NCBI RefSeq assembly: GCF_900188235.1
Contig: NZ_FZNT01000007.1
Coordinates: forward strand, 1-64,000
DNA: 64,000 nt
Direction: 5' to 3'
Source: Lutibacter agarilyticus
GTDB taxonomy: Bacteria; Bacteroidota; Bacteroidia; Flavobacteriales; Flavobacteriaceae
Shown: one piece after another, positions 24,508 to 31,697 of the stretch
How positions within the stretch are numbered: the first letter of the stretch is position 1
How the letters are laid out: every line of letters starts with the position of its first letter
Program-made: the position numbers and the translations under genes
The notes under the pieces: generated by a model
The model's database searches: none
Seen by the model: only the letters and a program-made list of their open reading frames with translations
What the model was told of the DNA's origin: nothing

Positions 24508-24530
24508 ACAAAATAACTATTATATAAAAG

Positions 24531-24557
24531 CCTCTGATTTGTCAGAGGTTTTTTTTT
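24531..24557 (+). terminator. Intrinsic terminator after fabD
   Basis: CCTCTGA (24531-24537) pairs with TCAGAGG (24542-24548) around TTTG, followed by nine Ts. Confidence 0.9.
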
Positions 24558-25061: not shown

Positions 25062-25091
25062 TTGCATATTAAAAAAATGTGATTACATTTG
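25062..25091 (+). promoter_or_regulatory. Bacteroidota-type promoter of the metY leader
   Basis: TTG (25062-25064), a 19-bp spacer, and TACATTTG (25084-25091) match the consensus exactly. Transcription should begin a few bases later, about 15 nt before the first leader ORF. I find no second promoter between the two leaders. Confidence 0.75.
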
Positions 25092-25111
25092 CATCAATAA
25101 AAATCGAAAAA

Positions 25112-25180
25112 ATGACAATTAAGTTTAATATTATGTACCGTATGATGTGTAAAATTTACACAGAGGCTGCTATTGTTTAA
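25112..25180 (+). CDS. Methionine-rich leader peptide 1 (22 aa)
   Basis: A 22-codon ORF between the promoter and the terminator at 25204. Four of its codons are ATG (positions 1, 8, 11, 12), followed by a Cys codon at 13 (block MYRMMCK, 25133-25153). Downstream of these codons, CAGAGG (25161-25166) is complementary to CCTCTG (25207-25212) in the 5' arm of the terminator. A ribosome stalled at the Met/Cys codons would leave CAGAGG free to form an antiterminator. A ribosome reaching the stop would mask it and let the terminator form. This is the logic of classical amino-acid attenuation. Translation is inferred. Confidence 0.65.
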   Translation: MTIKFNIMYRMMCKIYTEAAIV

Positions 25181-25203
25181 AACTTAATAACATAAACATA
25201 TAG

Positions 25204-25233
25204 AAACCTCTGAGAAATCAGAGGTTTTTTTTT
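25204..25233 (+). terminator. Attenuator terminator 1 upstream of metY
   Basis: AAACCTCTGA (25204-25213) pairs with TCAGAGGTTT (25218-25227) around a GAAA loop, and the T-run extends to 25233. It lies between the two leader ORFs. The arm CCTCTG can alternatively pair with CAGAGG inside leader 1. Confidence 0.85.
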
Positions 25234-25250
25234 ACAAAATAATTAGAAAA

Positions 25251-25343
25251 ATGAATTTTACTTTCCAAAAAAACATGACAAACCAATGTATAATGTGTAT
25301 GCAAATGATGCGTAGCACAATGATATGGTATTGCCAAAAATAA
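25251..25343 (+). CDS. Methionine/cysteine-rich leader peptide 2 (30 aa)
   Basis: A 30-codon ORF following the first attenuator. Seven codons are ATG and three encode Cys. The dense block CIMCMQMMRSTM spans 25287-25322. A start at the second ATG (25275) gives a 22-residue peptide, the same length as leader 1. A second terminator follows at 25371 and then metY at 25449. The CCAAA at 25334-25338 can pair with TTTGG (25377-25381) in the terminator's 5' arm, a weaker candidate antiterminator than in leader 1. The codon content matches the product of the downstream gene. Confidence 0.65.
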   Translation: MNFTFQKNMTNQCIMCMQMMRSTMIWYCQK

Positions 25344-25370
25344 AAGGAAATGAATATCTAAATAGATAAG

Positions 25371-25409
25371 AGTCCCTTTGGTAATACCTAATGCCCAAGG
25401 GACTTTTTT
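25371..25409 (+). terminator. Attenuator terminator 2 directly upstream of metY
   Basis: AGTCCCTT (25371-25378) pairs with AAGGGACT (25397-25404), with GG/CC extending it past a bulge, followed by a T-run to 25409. It is 39 bp before the metY start, so it must be read through for expression. Confidence 0.85.
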
Positions 25410-25448
25410 ATTTTAAAAATTAAAAAAAAACATTAAAAATATAGCATT

Positions 25449-26723
25449 ATGAGTACTCAAAAAATTTCAACACAAGCATTACACGCAGGTCACGATACAA
25501 CACAAACTTCAGGAACTAGGGCTGTTCCAATTTATCAATCATCATCGTATGTGTTTAATGATACTGAACACGCTGCTAATTTATTTTCATTAAAAGAATT
25601 AGGTTTTATTTATACCCGATTAAACAATCCAACAAACGATATTTTACAACAACGTTTGGCAGCTATTGAAGGTGGTGTAGGGGCAGTTGTTTTTGCTTCG
25701 GGAACTTCAGCAATTTCAACAGGATTACTAACATTATTAAAAGCAGGAGATCATATTGTAGCTTCTAGTAGTTTGTACGGAGGAACTTTTACTTTGTTAA
25801 ATGTTACTTTACCAAGATTAGGAATTACAACTACGTTTGTTGATGCTTCAAACCCTGAGAATTTTAAAGATGCTGTTCAAGACAATACTAGAGCATTTTT
25901 TGTAGAATCTTTAGGAAATCCAAAATTAGATGTATTAGATTTAGAAGCAATTGCTGAGCATTCAAAAGCAGCAGGTGTACCATTTATTGTAGATAATACA
26001 GTAGCAAGTCCGGCTTTATTAAATCCAATTAAGCACGGTGCTAACTTAGTTATTCATTCATTAACAAAATATATTGGCGGACAAGGGAATTCATTAGGAG
26101 GCGCTATTATTGATGCAGGTACTTTTGATTGGACTAGTGGAAAATTCCCTGAATTTACGGAGCCTTCAGCTGGTTACCACGGCTTGGTTTATAGTGAGGC
26201 TTTAGGAGTAGCAGCATTTACGTTTAAATTAATTTTAGAAGGATTACGTGATTTTGGTGGCGCTTTAAGTCCGTTCAACGCATTTCAAATTATTCAAGGG
26301 TTAGAAACTTTACCAGTTCGTATCAAACAACACAGTGCAAATGCATTGGAATTAGCACAATGGTTAGAAAGTAAAGAGGAAGTTGCTTGGGTAAATTATC
26401 CAGGATTAGAAAGTAGTAAATACAATGAGTTGGCTAAAAAATATCTACCAAAAGGACAAAGTGGTTTGGTAACTTTTGGTTTGAAGGGTGGTTTTGAGGC
26501 GGCTAAAAAAGTAACTGATGCAACTAAACTATTTTCATTATTAGCAAATATTGGCGATACAAAATCATTAATTATTCACCCAGCAAGTACAACACATCAG
26601 CAATTAACTAATGAGCAACAAGAAGCATCAGGAGTAACGCAAGATTTAATTCGTTTATCTGTTGGTTTAGAAGATATAGAAGATTTAAAAGCAGATTTAG
26701 AAGCAGCATTTACAACAATTTAA
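25449..26723 (+). CDS. metY: O-acetylhomoserine sulfhydrylase (aminocarboxypropyltransferase)
   Basis: A 424-residue PLP enzyme of the Cys/Met metabolism family that makes homocysteine from O-acetylhomoserine and sulfide. The PLP lysine is in SLTKYIGGQGNSLGG (about residue 206). Other blocks are YTRLNNPTNDILQQRLAA-like near the start, FASGTSAIST and the C-terminal HPASTTHQQLT. The ~425-residue length and the long insert before SGKFPEFTEPS favour MetY over MetB or MetZ. Expression is probably controlled by the two leader attenuators upstream. The next gene encodes the MetX that makes its substrate. Confidence 0.94.
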   Translation: MSTQKISTQALHAGHDTTQTSGTRAVPIYQSSSYVFNDTEHAANLFSLKELGFIYTRLNNPTNDILQQRLAAIEGGVGAVVFASGTSAISTGLLTLLKAGDHIVASSSLYGGTFTLLNVTLPRLGITTTFVDASNPENFKDAVQDNTRAFFVESLGNPKLDVLDLEAIAEHSKAAGVPFIVDNTVASPALLNPIKHGANLVIHSLTKYIGGQGNSLGGAIIDAGTFDWTSGKFPEFTEPSAGYHGLVYSEALGVAAFTFKLILEGLRDFGGALSPFNAFQIIQGLETLPVRIKQHSANALELAQWLESKEEVAWVNYPGLESSKYNELAKKYLPKGQSGLVTFGLKGGFEAAKKVTDATKLFSLLANIGDTKSLIIHPASTTHQQLTNEQQEASGVTQDLIRLSVGLEDIEDLKADLEAAFTTI

Positions 26724-26802: not shown

Positions 26803-26903
26803 TTGTTATCAAGAAAGGCAGAGGGAATAGACCCGTTGAAGCCTTAGCAACCCTTTATTTTTAAAGAAGGTGCTAAATTCTACCCATTATGGATAGATAA
26901 CGA
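26803..26903 (+). ncRNA. SAM-I (S-box) riboswitch
   Basis: The sequence follows the S-box consensus. P1 is TTGTTATC (26803-26810) with GATAACGA (26896-26903). The core has AAGAAAGGCAGAGGGA, then GACCCGTTGAAGCC, TTAGCAACCC and GGTGCTAAATTCTACC. SAM binding should shut off the metX-thrA fusion 97 nt downstream. A possible switch: TATTGTTAT (26801-26809), the 5' side of P1, is also perfectly complementary to ATAACAATA (26938-26946) near the start codon. Confidence 0.93.
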
Positions 26904-26999
26904 AACGTAATTACTACAGGTAATTTCTGCATTTCTCATAACAATAATTTTTTAAGTACAAACAAGCCTGAAAAGGAAGCTATTTTTAAATAATTATTG

Positions 27000-29900
27000 A
27001 TGAATCAATTAAAACAAATAACACTCACTAATTTTATTTCTGAAAAAGGAATTAAAAATGAACACATTCAACTTTCCTATGAAGTATTTGGGCAAGAATT
27101 ATATACGGCGCCTATTATTTTAGTGAATCATGCATTAACAGGTAACAGCAATGTTGCTGGTGATAATGGTTGGTGGATAGATTTAGTGGGTGAACATAAA
27201 GTAATTGATACTAATTTTTATACAATTATTTCATTCAATATTCCTGGGAATGGTTATGATGGTTTTTTGATTGAAAATTACAAAGATTTTGAAGTACGTG
27301 ATATTGCAAATATCTTTTTATTAGGATTGAAAGAATTAAAAATTGAAGGACTTTTTGCACTTATTGGAGGTTCTTTAGGTGGAGGAATTGCTTGGGAAAT
27401 GGCTGTAATTAAGCCAAATATTACAGCGCATTTAATTTTAGTAGCTACCGATTGGAAATCTACAGATTGGTTAATTGCAAACTGTCAAATTCAAGAGCAA
27501 TTTTTAACTAACTCTAGTAATCCTGTGCACGATGCGCGTATGCACGCCATGTTGTGTTACAGAACTCCTGAATCTTTTAAAGAGCGTTTTCAACGTTCAA
27601 AAAATGATGAATTAGAGATTTTTAATGTTGAAAGTTGGTTGCTACATCACGGTAAAAAATTACAAGAACGTTTTCAATTATCGGCCTATAAATTAATGAA
27701 TCAGCTGTTGAGATCTATTGATGTAACTAAAGGACGAGACGAACATGTTTTAGATACTATCAAAGCAAATATTCATATAGTTGGTGTTGATTCTGATTTA
27801 TTTTTTACGGCAGAAGAAAACAAAGAAACGCACAAACAATTAGCACTTACGCATCCCAATGTTACGTACAACGAAATTAATTCGGTACACGGACACGATG
27901 CATTTTTAATAGAGTACAAACAATTAGGAAAAATTATAGAACCAATTTTTAATAAAAGTTCTAAAAATAAAAATATGAAAGTAGTAAAATTTGGAGGAAA
28001 ATCGTTAGCGAGCGGTAAAGGTTTAGATAGTGTTTTAAGCATTATTGCAACTAAAGTCAAAAATAATGAAAAAATAGCTGTTGTTGTTTCAGCAAGAGGT
28101 AAAACTACCGATCATTTAGAATCTATTTTAGAAAAAGCAAAGAGCAGTTTACCATATAAAGAAGAGTTTGAATTGGTGAAAAATTACCAGTTAGATGTTG
28201 CTTCTGATATTGATTTATCTTCGGAGTTTCAATTGTTAGATGAAATTTTTAGAGGGGTAAATTTATTGGGAGATTACAGTGCTAAAGTAAAAGACCAAGT
28301 GTTGGCTCAAGGTGAAATAATGTCGGCTAAAACAATTGCTTTTTTATTAAACAAGCAAGGCGTAAATGCTACTTTTGCTGATACGCGTAAGCTGATTAAA
28401 ACAAACAATCAATTTGGAAATGCACAGCCTTTTGAAACAACTTCAGAAGAAAATGTGATCGAATATTTTAGAACACAGCCTGAAGATACTACTCAAATTA
28501 TTACTGGTTTTATTGGTTCAACTTTACAAGGTGAAACAACTACCTTAGGAAGAAATGGAAGTAATTATTCAGCTTCATTAATTGCTAATTTTTTGAATGC
28601 TCAAGAATTTCAAAATTACACGCATGTTGATGGTATTTACACGGCAAACCCTGATTTAGTTGAAAATGCTCAAAAAATTGAAAAATTAAGTTATCAAGAA
28701 GCCAATGAAATGGCCAATTTTGGAGCAAACATTTTACACGCAAAAACAATTATTCCGTTAATTGAAAAAAATATTCCGTTAAGGATTTTAAATACGTTTA
28801 ACAATGATAATACGGGAACTTTAATTGGTTCTGAAACAGAGCGTGGCGGAATTAAATCATTATCAGTTGAGCAAGATGTAGCTTTGGTAAATTTAATTGG
28901 GCGAGGATTGTTAGGTAAAGTTGGTGTTGATGGTAGAATTTTTGGAGCTTTAGGAAAAGAAAAAATTAGTGTTAGTATTATTTCTCAAGGTTCTTCGGAA
29001 AGAGGAATTGGGTTTATTGTTGACGCTAAAGATGGTTACAAAGCAAAAAGAGTTTTAGAAGAAGAGTTTAAAACAGAGTTTCAAAGTAAAGATGTAAGTC
29101 AGATTTATATTACAGAAAATGTGTCGGTAATTTCAATTGTAGGGCAAAGCTTACACTCTTTCAATCAGCCGTATAGCGCTTTAATTAAAAACCATATTAC
29201 ACCAATATTAATTAACAATACGGTTACTGGTGAAAATGTATGTTTGGTGGTAAAGAAAACCGATTTAAATAAAGCGGTAAATGTAATTCACGGTGAAATT
29301 TTTGGAGTATCAAAAAATATTAACATAGCTATTTTTGGTAAAGGATTAGTTGGTGGAACGTTGATTAACCAAATCTTAAAGAGCAAAGAAAATATTATAA
29401 AAAGAAAGAACATCAGCTTAAATATTTTTGCTGTGGCAAATTCTTCAAAAGTGTTGTTGAATAAAAATGGAGTGGACCAAAACTGGGAGCAAGATTTAGC
29501 AAATGCTTCTGAAGACAATAATGTTCAAACAATTATAGATTACGCAGAGAAAAATCATTTAGAAAATTTAATTGCCATTGACAATACGGCAAATAGTGCC
29601 TTTGTTCAAAATTATATTGATTTAGTTGAAAACGGGTTCGATTTAATTTCTTCAAATAAAATTGCCAATACATTAGATTATGAGTTTTATAAAGAATTGC
29701 GTAAAAAATTAAAGGAAAATAAAAAAGCATATTTATACGAAACCAATGTTGGCGCAGGTTTGCCATTAATTGATACTATAAAGTTATTACACGATTCTGG
29801 TGAAAATATTACGCAAATTAGAGGTGTGTTCTCTGGTTCGTTAAGTTATTTGTTTAACAATTTTTCAGTGCAAGACAGACCTTTTAGTGAGGTGTTAAAA

Positions 29901-30389
29901 GAAGCTATTGAAAAGGGTTATACAGAACCTGATCCGCGTGAAGATTTATGTGGAAATGATGTTGGACGTAAATTATTGATTTTAGCTCGTGAATTGGATT
30001 TGCAAAATGAGTTTACCGATGTGAAAATTGAAAACTTGATTCCTGAAGATTTAAGAGAAGGTTCTTCAGAAGAGTTTTTAGGTAAATTAGCTGAAATGGA
30101 TGCGCCTTATAAAGCAATAAAAGATGCTCAAAAAGAAGGTCATGTGCTGCGATATATTGGTGACTTGTCTGGGGATTTACAACAAGATAAAGGAGTGTTA
30201 GAAGTGAAATTAATTTCAGTACCTGCGAATAGTGCTTTAGGTCAAATTCAAGGTGCCGATGCTATTTTTGAAGTATTTACAGAATCGTATGGAGAAAAAC
30301 CAATTGTAATTCAAGGAGCCGGAGCCGGAGCTGCAGTTACTGCAAGAGGTGTATTTGGTGATATTTTACGATTGGCAGAAAAAAATTAA
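27000..30389 (+). CDS. Fused homoserine O-acetyltransferase / aspartokinase / homoserine dehydrogenase
   Basis: A 1129-residue fusion; I start at the ATG at 27000, not the adjoining TTG. Residues 1-~320 form an alpha/beta-hydrolase MetX domain with nucleophile GGSLGGG, acid VGVDSDLFF and His in VHGHDAFL. Residues ~326-770 are aspartokinase (KFGGKSLASG, TLGRNGSNYSAS, two ACT domains). Residues ~773-1129 are homoserine dehydrogenase (IAIFGKGLVGG, GAGLPLIDTIK, GVFSGSLSYLFN, PDPREDLCGNDVGRK). One polypeptide thus covers aspartate phosphorylation, aspartate-semialdehyde reduction and homoserine acetylation. The kinase motif has Lys where KFGGTS is usual. A SAM-I riboswitch controls it. Confidence 0.93.
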   Translation: MNQLKQITLTNFISEKGIKNEHIQLSYEVFGQELYTAPIILVNHALTGNSNVAGDNGWWIDLVGEHKVIDTNFYTIISFNIPGNGYDGFLIENYKDFEVRDIANIFLLGLKELKIEGLFALIGGSLGGGIAWEMAVIKPNITAHLILVATDWKSTDWLIANCQIQEQFLTNSSNPVHDARMHAMLCYRTPESFKERFQRSKNDELEIFNVESWLLHHGKKLQERFQLSAYKLMNQLLRSIDVTKGRDEHVLDTIKANIHIVGVDSDLFFTAEENKETHKQLALTHPNVTYNEINSVHGHDAFLIEYKQLGKIIEPIFNKSSKNKNMKVVKFGGKSLASGKGLDSVLSIIATKVKNNEKIAVVVSARGKTTDHLESILEKAKSSLPYKEEFELVKNYQLDVASDIDLSSEFQLLDEIFRGVNLLGDYSAKVKDQVLAQGEIMSAKTIAFLLNKQGVNATFADTRKLIKTNNQFGNAQPFETTSEENVIEYFRTQPEDTTQIITGFIGSTLQGETTTLGRNGSNYSASLIANFLNAQEFQNYTHVDGIYTANPDLVENAQKIEKLSYQEANEMANFGANILHAKTIIPLIEKNIPLRILNTFNNDNTGTLIGSETERGGIKSLSVEQDVALVNLIGRGLLGKVGVDGRIFGALGKEKISVSIISQGSSERGIGFIVDAKDGYKAKRVLEEEFKTEFQSKDVSQIYITENVSVISIVGQSLHSFNQPYSALIKNHITPILINNTVTGENVCLVVKKTDLNKAVNVIHGEIFGVSKNINIAIFGKGLVGGTLINQILKSKENIIKRKNISLNIFAVANSSKVLLNKNGVDQNWEQDLANASEDNNVQTIIDYAEKNHLENLIAIDNTANSAFVQNYIDLVENGFDLISSNKIANTLDYEFYKELRKKLKENKKAYLYETNVGAGLPLIDTIKLLHDSGENITQIRGVFSGSLSYLFNNFSVQDRPFSEVLKEAIEKGYTEPDPREDLCGNDVGRKLLILARELDLQNEFTDVKIENLIPEDLREGSSEEFLGKLAEMDAPYKAIKDAQKEGHVLRYIGDLSGDLQQDKGVLEVKLISVPANSALGQIQGADAIFEVFTESYGEKPIVIQGAGAGAAVTARGVFGDILRLAEKN

Positions 30390-30527: not shown

Positions 30528-31697
30528 ATGGATAGCAAAAATTTTGAAACAGAGGCGATACGTACGCAAATAGAACGATCTCAATTTCAGGAGCATACAA
30601 CACCAATGTATGTAACTTCAAGTTTTGTGTTTGATGATGCTGAAGATATGCGAGCTTCGTTTACTGAAGAAAAAATTAAAAATATTTATTCGCGTTATAG
30701 CAATCCAAATACTTCTGAATTTGTTGAGAAAGTAATGAAAATGGAAGGTGCAGAAGATGGTTATGCGTTTGCTTCAGGTATGGCAGCTATTTATTCAACC
30801 TTTGCTGCGTTGTTAAGTAGCGGAGATCATATTGTTTCGGCACGTTCAATTTTTGGTTCAACACATACGTTGTTTACCAAGTATTTTCCGAAGTGGAATA
30901 TTTCAACATCTTATTTTGATATTAATAATCCTGATGAAATTGAAGCGCTAATTACGCCTTCAACAAAAATATTATATGCAGAATCTCCAACAAATCCTGG
31001 AGTTGATATTATAGATTTAGAGTTGTTGGGTGCAATTGCTAAAAAACACAATTTATTATTAATTATTGATAATTGTTTTGCAACACCTTACATTCAGCAG
31101 CCTATAAAATATGGTGCAGATTTAGTGGTACATTCTGCTACCAAATTAATGGATGGACAAGGAAGAGTTTTGGGAGGAGTAACCGTTGGAAAAGCTGATT
31201 TGATTCGTGAAATTTATTTATTTGCGCGTAATACGGGTCCGTCATTAGCGCCTTTCAACGCTTGGACCTTGAGTAAAAGTTTGGAAACATTGGCAGTTCG
31301 TGTTGATAGGCACTGTGAAAATGCGTTAAAAATTGCCGAGGTTTTAGAAAATAATGAATTTATTTCAAAAGTAAAATACCCGTTTTTAAAATCGCATCCA
31401 CAATATGAAATTGCTAAAAAGCAAATGAAATTAGGTGGAAATATTATTGCTATTGAGGTAAAAGGAGGTATTGAAGCTGGTCGTAAATTTTTAAACAGTA
31501 TTAAAATGTGCTCATTGTCGGCTAATTTAGGAGATACCAGAACTATTGTTACGCACCCAGCATCGACTACGCATAGTAAATTAAGTGAAGATGAACAGCT
31601 TGAAGTAGGTATTACGCCAGGTTTGGTTCGTATTTCAGTTGGGTTAGAAAATGTAAATGATGTAATTGAAGACATTACTCAAGCGTTAAAATCGTAA
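30528..31697 (+). CDS. metZ: O-succinylhomoserine sulfhydrylase-type PLP enzyme
   Basis: A 389-residue Cys/Met metabolism PLP enzyme. The PLP lysine lies in HSATKLMDGQGR (about residue 205). Other blocks are IYSRYSNPNTSEFVEK, FASGMAAIYSTFAALL and HPASTTHSKL. The shorter length and N-terminal pattern (TEAIRTQIERSQFQEHTTPMY, partly shown) fit MetZ better than MetY. Substrate choice (O-acetyl- or O-succinyl-homoserine, cysteine or sulfide) is not certain. Because the upstream MetX makes the acetyl ester, both MetY and MetZ may use it. Confidence 0.87.
   Translation: MDSKNFETEAIRTQIERSQFQEHTTPMYVTSSFVFDDAEDMRASFTEEKIKNIYSRYSNPNTSEFVEKVMKMEGAEDGYAFASGMAAIYSTFAALLSSGDHIVSARSIFGSTHTLFTKYFPKWNISTSYFDINNPDEIEALITPSTKILYAESPTNPGVDIIDLELLGAIAKKHNLLLIIDNCFATPYIQQPIKYGADLVVHSATKLMDGQGRVLGGVTVGKADLIREIYLFARNTGPSLAPFNAWTLSKSLETLAVRVDRHCENALKIAEVLENNEFISKVKYPFLKSHPQYEIAKKQMKLGGNIIAIEVKGGIEAGRKFLNSIKMCSLSANLGDTRTIVTHPASTTHSKLSEDEQLEVGITPGLVRISVGLENVNDVIEDITQALKS

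Follow-up and report, generated by a model that had tools for sequence, protein, structure and literature searches.

In the trp, his, leu and thr attenuators of Proteobacteria, an open reading frame (ORF) carrying codons for the product amino acid is combined with a 1:2 hairpin, a 2:3 antiterminator and a 3:4 terminator followed by a U-run. For the sulfur amino acids, the searchable text of the respective papers describes metL of Streptomyces lividans, a predicted Met/Cys-rich short ORF located before metNIQ and without a typical Rho-independent terminator (PMC8079986), uORFC-8-2, a Cys-codon attenuator before cysS in Rhodobacterales (PMC8632094), and the leader peptides of Actinobacteria, which carry runs of Cys codons before cys genes and have no conserved terminator hairpins (PMC1262725). 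According to a paper of 2010, its authors knew, ermC apart, of leader peptide systems demonstrated only in Proteobacteria and Actinobacteria until their own Firmicutes case, as far as its searchable text goes (PMC2965389). Leader-like short ORFs have been noted in Bacteroides, again judging from searchable text (PMC7366714). Our literature search, in which subscription papers were mostly unsearchable, returned, among the papers listed, no Met attenuator with a terminator and an antiterminator and no Met leader from Bacteroidota. This agrees with an earlier reading of the DNA analyzed here (hereafter, the sequence-only reading), which knew of no described methionine attenuator of this type in the phylum, and general clues do exist for flavobacteria: the searchable text on Flavobacterium psychrophilum mentions clues for leader-peptide attenuation in the 5' regions of amino acid biosynthesis operons (PMC9723704).

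Here, we analyze the region upstream of metY in a 64,000-nt stretch of the Lutibacter agarilyticus genome (positions 1 to 64,000 of contig NZ_FZNT01000007.1, assembly GCF_900188235.1; hereafter, the window). Judging from comparative sequence analysis, this region very probably regulates metY through two ribosome-mediated transcription attenuators in tandem, which respond to the supply of charged tRNA-Met.

Two leader ORFs and two terminators upstream of metY

Between positions 25062 and 25448, the forward strand carries, in this order, a promoter, a 22-codon ORF, a terminator, a 30-codon ORF and another terminator, followed by metY. The sequence-only reading had described all these features, including the consensus promoter and the Met and Cys codons of the two ORFs, and all of them were confirmed. 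The promoter (25062-25091), which we take to be of the Bacteroidota -33/-7 type, consists of TTG at 25062-25064 and, after 19 nt, TACATTTG at 25084-25091; the TTG and TAnATTTG elements are invariant among 8 aligned sequences, and the pattern TTG-N17-22-TAnnTTTG occurs at most 110 nt from leader 1 at 28 of 66 loci, compared to 0.5 expected from mononucleotide shuffling. A later promoter bypassing the terminators, considered in the same reading, did not emerge from a pattern search, in which no TTG-N16-23-TAnnTTTG was found between leader 1 and metY. The metY gene itself (25449-26723, + strand) encodes O-acetylhomoserine aminocarboxypropyltransferase, a homocysteine synthase (TIGR01326, 622 bits at a cut-off of 495). 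Generic scans were uninformative for this leader: a sigma-70-like scan of the window returned 6 sites vs 9.1 expected, the metY-leader promoter not being among them, and a simple terminator scan listed neither leader terminator on the + strand, with the terminator 1 stem listed on the - strand.

The first leader ORF (MTIKFNIMYRMMCKIYTEAAIV; 25112-25180, + strand) contains 4 Met codons and 1 Cys codon among its 22 codons and is conserved in the genus and the family. Codon conservation places the predicted stall site at its two regulatory Met codons, ATG ATG (25142-25147, + strand). A hairpin of the 1:2 type inside the ORF, P1 (25146-25162, + strand), overlaps the start of the antiterminator 1 strand, CAGAGG at 25161-25166 (+ strand), for which the sequence-only reading had already proposed pairing with CCTCTG at 25207-25212; the two segments are indeed present and complementary. 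Folding also suggests, tentatively, an upper antiterminator helix (25170-25203, + strand) in which 25170-25177 pairs with 25195-25203 and the stop codon lies in the loop. The intrinsic terminator 1 (25204-25231, + strand) comprises a stem at 25204-25227 and a U-run (-13.5 kcal/mol). A nearly identical stem, CCTCTGA/TCAGAGG, is found at 24526-24553, in the terminator 3' of the upstream gene, and the terminator and antiterminator of the leader may thus derive from a common genomic terminator type.

The second leader ORF (MNFTFQKNMTNQCIMCMQMMRSTMIWYCQK; 25251-25343, + strand), likewise conserved, contains 7 Met and 3 Cys codons among 30, and is followed by intrinsic terminator 2 (25371-25408, + strand; stem 25371-25404 plus U-run, -16.2 kcal/mol). 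The sequence-only reading had this ORF and this terminator right and overlooked antiterminator 2, the 5' strand of which (GGTATTGCCAAA; 25327-25338, + strand; codons WYCQK) forms 12 bp with TTTGGTAATACC at 25377-25388, that is, with an arm and the loop of terminator 2. The leader 1 model weakly matches second leaders at six loci (L286, L254, L246, L243, L238 and L102; E = 3e-5 to 5e-4), a hint that leader 2 originated by tandem duplication of leader 1.

Met accounts for 19-21% of the residues in both leaders (start excluded), compared to a background of 1.75% in window ORFs of at least 150 aa, in which Cys makes up 0.97%. The Met/Cys composition of leader 2 would be reached by chance with P = 5e-8, and of the 355 window ORFs that start with ATG and span 15-40 codons, only 1 equals its richness. 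For leader 1, the corresponding values are P = 0.0023 and 10 of 355, so that its composition alone is not very unusual and its reality is decided by conservation. Among known RNA families, neither a SAM-I or SAM-II aptamer nor a T-box was found in the metY leader at gathering scores, and no SAM family or T-box appeared at E <= 1; the best Rfam leader families were PyrG_leader (27.1 bits, 65 needed) and Phe_leader (23.0 bits, 55 needed). Searches of NCBIfam with the leader peptides were negative, and none of their Pfam matches exceeded a curated cut-off. In a search for further leader 1 copies in the same genome, the metY site scored E = 1.4e-16 and the next of the 19 matches E = 0.04; thus, no additional copy is claimed.

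Conservation, downstream genes and exchange with riboswitches

In a first set of 80 metY loci, both leaders were present in six Lutibacter loci (L006, L007 and L009-L012) and in Lutimonas (L060), and Flavicella (L014) had one leader. One more locus (L008) had leader 2 only, because its contig (SDWL01000024.1) starts at leader 2; positions 1-19 of this contig, presumably derived from a Nextera transposon adapter, give the leader 2 ORF a spurious start there. At the remaining 71 of the 80 loci, three of which (L067, L073 and L075) have less than 330 nt upstream, no such leader passed the filter (at least 4 Met plus Cys), and unrelated ORFs passed in seven. Across the genus, metY was detected in 28 of 38 genomes (E <= 1e-150), with both leaders in 27 of the 28 and leader 2 alone, on a truncated contig, in the remaining one. 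A covariance model of leader 1 (R1) matched 27 of 299 family genomes, representing 17 of 203 genera, at E <= 2.4e-5. Thus, the short ORFs and their Met codons are retained in relatives, as the sequence-only reading had anticipated. At E <= 0.01, R1 matched 84 of the 299 genomes; of three matches weaker than 2.4e-5 that were read, one was a good leader (L254, E = 1.5e-4) and two were not leaders (L255 and L256), and given this mixture, the remainder was not counted.

The genes following the leaders were identified at 27 loci (L228-L254), namely, the 26 strong matches besides the window's own plus that of genome G227 (E = 1.5e-4): metY at 22, metX-thrA at 2, a metB-like gene at 1, a gene for a TonB-dependent receptor at 1 and a transposase gene at 1. 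The peptides at the family loci include MYQTIFNMMRMMMWKASAAHSIE together with MKKAMNNMMMRDMMMSMMMRHMNRYCQNRI; a core NM..MM[CWP] recurs among the leader peptides. The transposase gene (L242, 2111-2455) follows two leaders at a contig end and perhaps represents an insertion between the leaders and their target gene. Another apparent insertion, of ~225-250 nt, separates leader 2 from metY at three loci (L103, L107 and L104); at L103, it contains palindromic GATGGGGC-type repeats, and both leaders are intact.

In a search of the order (393 genomes), strong matches concentrated in a single genus with dense sampling (g111, probably Flavobacterium), some of whose genomes had two or three. In this genus, a TonB-receptor-like long ORF follows leader 1 at L250, L272, L277-L282, L284 and L288, the plug domain being confirmed in L250 and L272 only; in the genome of L250, leader 2 and metY follow the receptor gene, an order recorded for genome G305 (L199). 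It is possible that the methionine regulon includes the TonB-dependent receptor. Outside the family but within the order, a Met-rich leader with a terminator precedes a metX-thrA relative at L291 (f3) and metY at L297 (f4), whereas several other matches fetched from these families had no Met-rich leader. Beyond the order, matches in the phylum search were weak (best E = 1.6e-5), and the two fetched (L303 and L314) lacked a Met-rich leader; thus, no spread beyond the order is claimed. Three additional loci carry leaders before other genes. At L296, a Met/Cys-rich leader and a terminator precede a gene with a PAPS-reductase domain and then a second gene with such a domain (CysD-like), so that the same control may extend to sulfur assimilation there. 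A leader-1-like ORF and a terminator are followed by a gene without a Pfam match and an ABC transporter ATPase gene at L293, and by an OsmC-like gene and a long ORF resembling an ABC transporter ATPase at L321.

The pattern of insertions and deletions is of the coding type. Counted per sequence against the window, so that shared events count repeatedly, and omitting L060, L134, L147 and L008, all indels inside the ORFs were multiples of 3 (4 of 4 in leader 1 and 7 of 7 in leader 2), compared to 16 of 82 downstream of the stops (leader 1, 13 of 47; leader 2, 3 of 35). Substitutions mildly favour the third codon position in leader 1 (55/96/121 by position, with L201 and L204 omitted as well), and no such excess exists in leader 2 (116/217/214). 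Frame-true indels combined with little third-position excess indicate that selection acts on the Met codons and the reading frame and that the peptide as a whole is not kept. Both the Met-codon enrichment and the frame-keeping indels are what a leader ORF of an attenuator would be expected to display.

Where the leaders are missing, metY is typically preceded by another regulator. Among a further 80 family loci, taken from the metY matches listed below the first 30 and regardless of leaders, 74 upstream regions contain a SAM-I riboswitch on the metY strand. Leaders are present in four of the 80 (L147, L199, L201 and L204), none of which has SAM-I. At L193, a SAM-II riboswitch (170-229, - strand) stands before metY in place of SAM-I and is a third regulator type at metY; at L206, metK is located directly upstream of metY, leaving no room for a regulator. 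In the window itself, a SAM-I riboswitch (26803-26903) precedes the ORF at 26997-30389, which encodes a MetX-like domain and aspartokinase/homoserine dehydrogenase (metX-thrA); thus, a SAM sensor and Met-codon leaders are combined within one gene cluster. A Flavo-1 RNA (RF01705, 30414-30496) is located directly before an O-succinylhomoserine sulfhydrylase-like gene at 30528.

In a different family, the Met model matched three loci from a single genus (L310, L316 and L317; first 330 nt, in match orientation), which encode MNFTTTTTIS[TI]TTTI[RS]SCRK[AV]CL, followed by a terminator and by a gene related to aspartokinase/homoserine dehydrogenase (Pfam domains, L310). We take this leader for a probable threonine attenuator built on the same plan: Thr and Ile codons stand before a threonine-pathway gene, as attenuation predicts. 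The observation suggests that leader codons follow the pathway of the controlled gene.

Competing helices and ribosome geometry

The sequence-only reading had proposed that terminator and antiterminator arms would covary among relatives. The 32 close sequences vary too little to address this (for antiterminator 1, 37 of 500 shuffles reach the observed count, which is not significant), and a wider leader 1 set was therefore assembled from loci chosen for a readable leader or a strong model match: of 74 matches of model R2, 8 were dropped (six second leaders and two reverse-strand palindromes), leaving 66. In an alignment of these 66 sequences fitted to the two helices, terminator 1 is paired in 99.2% of cells, with 75 cells changed on both sides vs 13.9 after shuffling, and P1 in 89.1%, with 26 vs 7.3; neither count was reached in 500 shuffles. 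The alignment was not fitted to antiterminator 1, although the strands of this helix overlap P1 and terminator 1. Nevertheless, the helix (25160-25166/25207-25213) is paired in 88.9% of cells, with 29 both-side changes vs 4.6 shuffled (0 of 500), and sliding the partner reduces pairing to 36-48%. The upper antiterminator helix (25170-25203) is unsupported by pair counts, being paired in 48.1% of cells, equal to the shuffled value. Among 30 leader 2 sequences, antiterminator 2 is paired in 92.2% of cells, with 11 both-side changes vs 3.8 shuffled (0 of 500), which fall on 2 pairs, a number of pairs reached by 68 of 500 shuffles; with the partner slid, pairing does not exceed 51%. For terminator 2, the values are 97.0% and 7 vs 0.8 (0 of 500), with slides reaching up to 69%.

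Because shuffles ignore relatedness, slides and arm swaps weigh more. The leader 1 swap set comprised 55 rows minus L249 (unparsed) and 22 Lutibacter relatives, that is, 32, with the mis-parsed L147 kept; pairing with the own arm averaged -15.9 kcal/mol vs -10.9 kcal/mol with arms of other species (0 of 20,000 permutations), and 29 of the 32 segments beat their own shuffles at p <= 0.05. For 37 second leaders, own arms also paired better than swapped ones (-12.3 vs -10.3 kcal/mol; 0 of 20,000 permutations); taken singly, 11 of the 37 beat their shuffles at p <= 0.05, and those of L251, L262, L286 and L290 scored below most shuffles, without a good partner. Thus, the terminator located between leader and gene is conserved and covarying, and covariation backs an antiterminator exclusive with it, more weakly in some second leaders. 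From these comparisons, the antiterminator appears strongly supported in leader 1 and, among close relatives of the window, in leader 2, with a weaker case for second leaders elsewhere.

The position of the Met codons relative to these helices is constant. In the 66 leader 1 sequences, which were found with models derived from leaders of this kind so that Met conservation partly reflects selection by the search, the last core codon is Met in 64 and the preceding one in 53, and Met never occurs at the eight codons downstream. The codon right after the last core one specifies Trp in 24 sequences, Pro in 15 and Cys in 14; the gene-based surveys of metY upstream regions are unaffected by this bias. 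Because the key codon is Met in 64 sequences and the following one is Cys in only 14, leader 1 would be a Met sensor. Of the alternatives in the sequence-only reading, in which leader 1 senses Met or Cys, the former thus stands, whereas the latter is at odds with the lack of Cys conservation at the stall site. The distance from the last core Met codon to the antiterminator strand is 14, 15, 17 or 18 nt in 9, 47, 1 and 9 sequences, respectively, and that from the antiterminator start to the stop codon is 15-24 nt in 64 sequences and 7 nt in 2. Given common values for the ribosome footprint, a ribosome at the control codons is predicted to leave the antiterminator strand accessible and a ribosome at the stop codon to cover it.

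Masked folding, with the transcript ending at the terminator's 5' arm, agrees in part with this geometry. Antiterminator 1 is the predicted fold (-14.4 kcal/mol) when the ribosome is placed at Met 11, Met 12 or Cys 13, and antiterminator 2 (-17.7 kcal/mol) when it is placed at Met 25305 or 25308; with the ribosome at the stop codons, neither forms. In the full transcript with a stalled ribosome, the terminator is the minimum-energy fold for both leaders, so that antitermination would have to rely on kinetics. For both leaders, ribosome-free RNA ending at the 5' arm likewise adopts the antiterminator fold (-19.2 kcal/mol for leader 1 and -28.0 kcal/mol for leader 2), and P1 plus the terminator appears only in the full leader 1 RNA (-31.3). 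Because the ribosome-free partial RNA folds as the antiterminator, folding alone does not predict default termination.

Proposed attenuation, its alternatives and described systems

We propose that, with plentiful Met-tRNA, the ribosome translating the leader would reach the stop codon and mask the antiterminator strand, so that the terminator forms and metY is off. With scarce Met-tRNA, the ribosome would wait at the Met codons 14-18 nt before this strand, which, left free, would capture the terminator's 5' arm while the 3' arm is still untranscribed, allowing RNA polymerase to continue. Leader 2, richer in Cys codons and equipped with an antiterminator of its own, would repeat the switch, possibly adding Cys sensing, and both gates would have to open. 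The proposal of the sequence-only reading that ribosome stalling attenuates metY thus gains support from conservation, covariation, arm swaps and the Thr-rich analogue. A point against it is that Met shortage also lowers initiator tRNA, so that fewer ribosomes would load on the leaders; if the lack of initiator tRNA emptied the leader, readthrough would be a useful outcome for a Met sensor. More broadly, and tentatively, the leaders might belong to a large, as yet undescribed family of tandem attenuators of methionine genes in Flavobacteriaceae, in which gate 1 reads Met-tRNA and gate 2 Met- and Cys-tRNA, which has repeatedly been exchanged with SAM-I, and the scaffold of which has been re-coded for Thr in a sister family.

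The division of labor between the gates could be sharper, with gate 1 reading Met-tRNA and gate 2 mainly Cys-tRNA, so that the two form an AND gate. Cys indeed makes up 12.8% of leader 2 residues vs 6.2% in leader 1 and, in the codon bin at 16-18 nt from the antiterminator, reaches 42% among 33 second leaders, with Met down to 24%. However, Cys is equally frequent (45%) in the bin just before the antiterminator, where a stall would mask the strand, Met dominates the bins at 19-21 nt (73%) and 28-30 nt (76%), and leader 2 of the window has Met (25305 and 25308), not Cys, at stalling distance, which together make a mainly Cys-reading second gate rather unlikely. A TnaC-like nascent-peptide arrest, in which the leader peptide in the exit tunnel senses Met, SAM or a metal, would fit the recurrent core, the capacity of Cys and Met to bind metals and the conserved C-terminal part. 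This part, however, is largely the antiterminator strand and changes with its RNA partner, residues other than Met vary widely, and the Thr-rich version preserves the layout with the amino acid exchanged; we therefore regard arrest as improbable. Action in trans, by the leader RNA as a small RNA or by a functional Met/Cys-rich peptide, has in its favor that short terminated transcripts would arise and that a leader peptide working in trans is on record, as far as the searchable text goes (PMC7298713), but is highly improbable given that the leaders precede Met genes at 25 of 27 loci, that the competing helices point to action in cis, and that the peptide is poorly conserved outside Met. Finally, chance ORFs between ordinary terminators, with the metY promoter below both, are hardly credible: the unexceptional composition of leader 1 and the similar terminator stem at 24526 are outweighed by conservation over 17 genera, frame-keeping indels, covariation and the lack of a second promoter of the same type before metY.

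If the tandem Met-tRNA attenuator is real, attenuation would be widespread in a phylum where it is barely described, and methionine would be an odd choice of signal, since its shortage also hits initiation. Furthermore, with metY of close relatives under either a SAM aptamer or tRNA charging, one could ask what each signal buys and how regulators swap, and the tandem form would offer a multi-gate logic open to simple reporters. In many flavobacterial genomes, the motif can guide the annotation of methionine and sulfur genes.

Attenuation as such is known; its Met version, the tandem form and the exchange with SAM-I appear to be undescribed in the searchable literature. SAM-I (RF00162) occupies the same regulatory position before metY in other Flavobacteriaceae, but its aptamer senses SAM and is absent where leaders stand (0/4). 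As far as the searchable text of the sources cited above goes, the Cys leaders of Actinobacteria resemble the metY leaders in their runs of sulfur amino acid codons (Cys), but are without terminator hairpins and involve no Met genes, whereas uORFC-8-2 shares sulfur amino acid codons, attenuator characteristics and comparative evidence, but relies on Cys only, precedes an aminoacyl-tRNA synthetase gene and comes from Alphaproteobacteria. With the same limitation to searchable text, metL is also a predicted short Met/Cys-rich ORF before methionine genes, whereas the metY leaders possess two terminators, covarying antiterminators and a biosynthetic target gene; the F. psychrophilum clues concern the same family as the window and the 5' regions of amino acid biosynthesis, but pheA and hisG, and no methionine gene, are among those named (PMC9723704). 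The metY leaders fit the trp/his/leu/thr type in element order and spacing, and differ from it in using Met, the initiator amino acid, in having two attenuators in series, in their A-rich start and in belonging to Bacteroidota.
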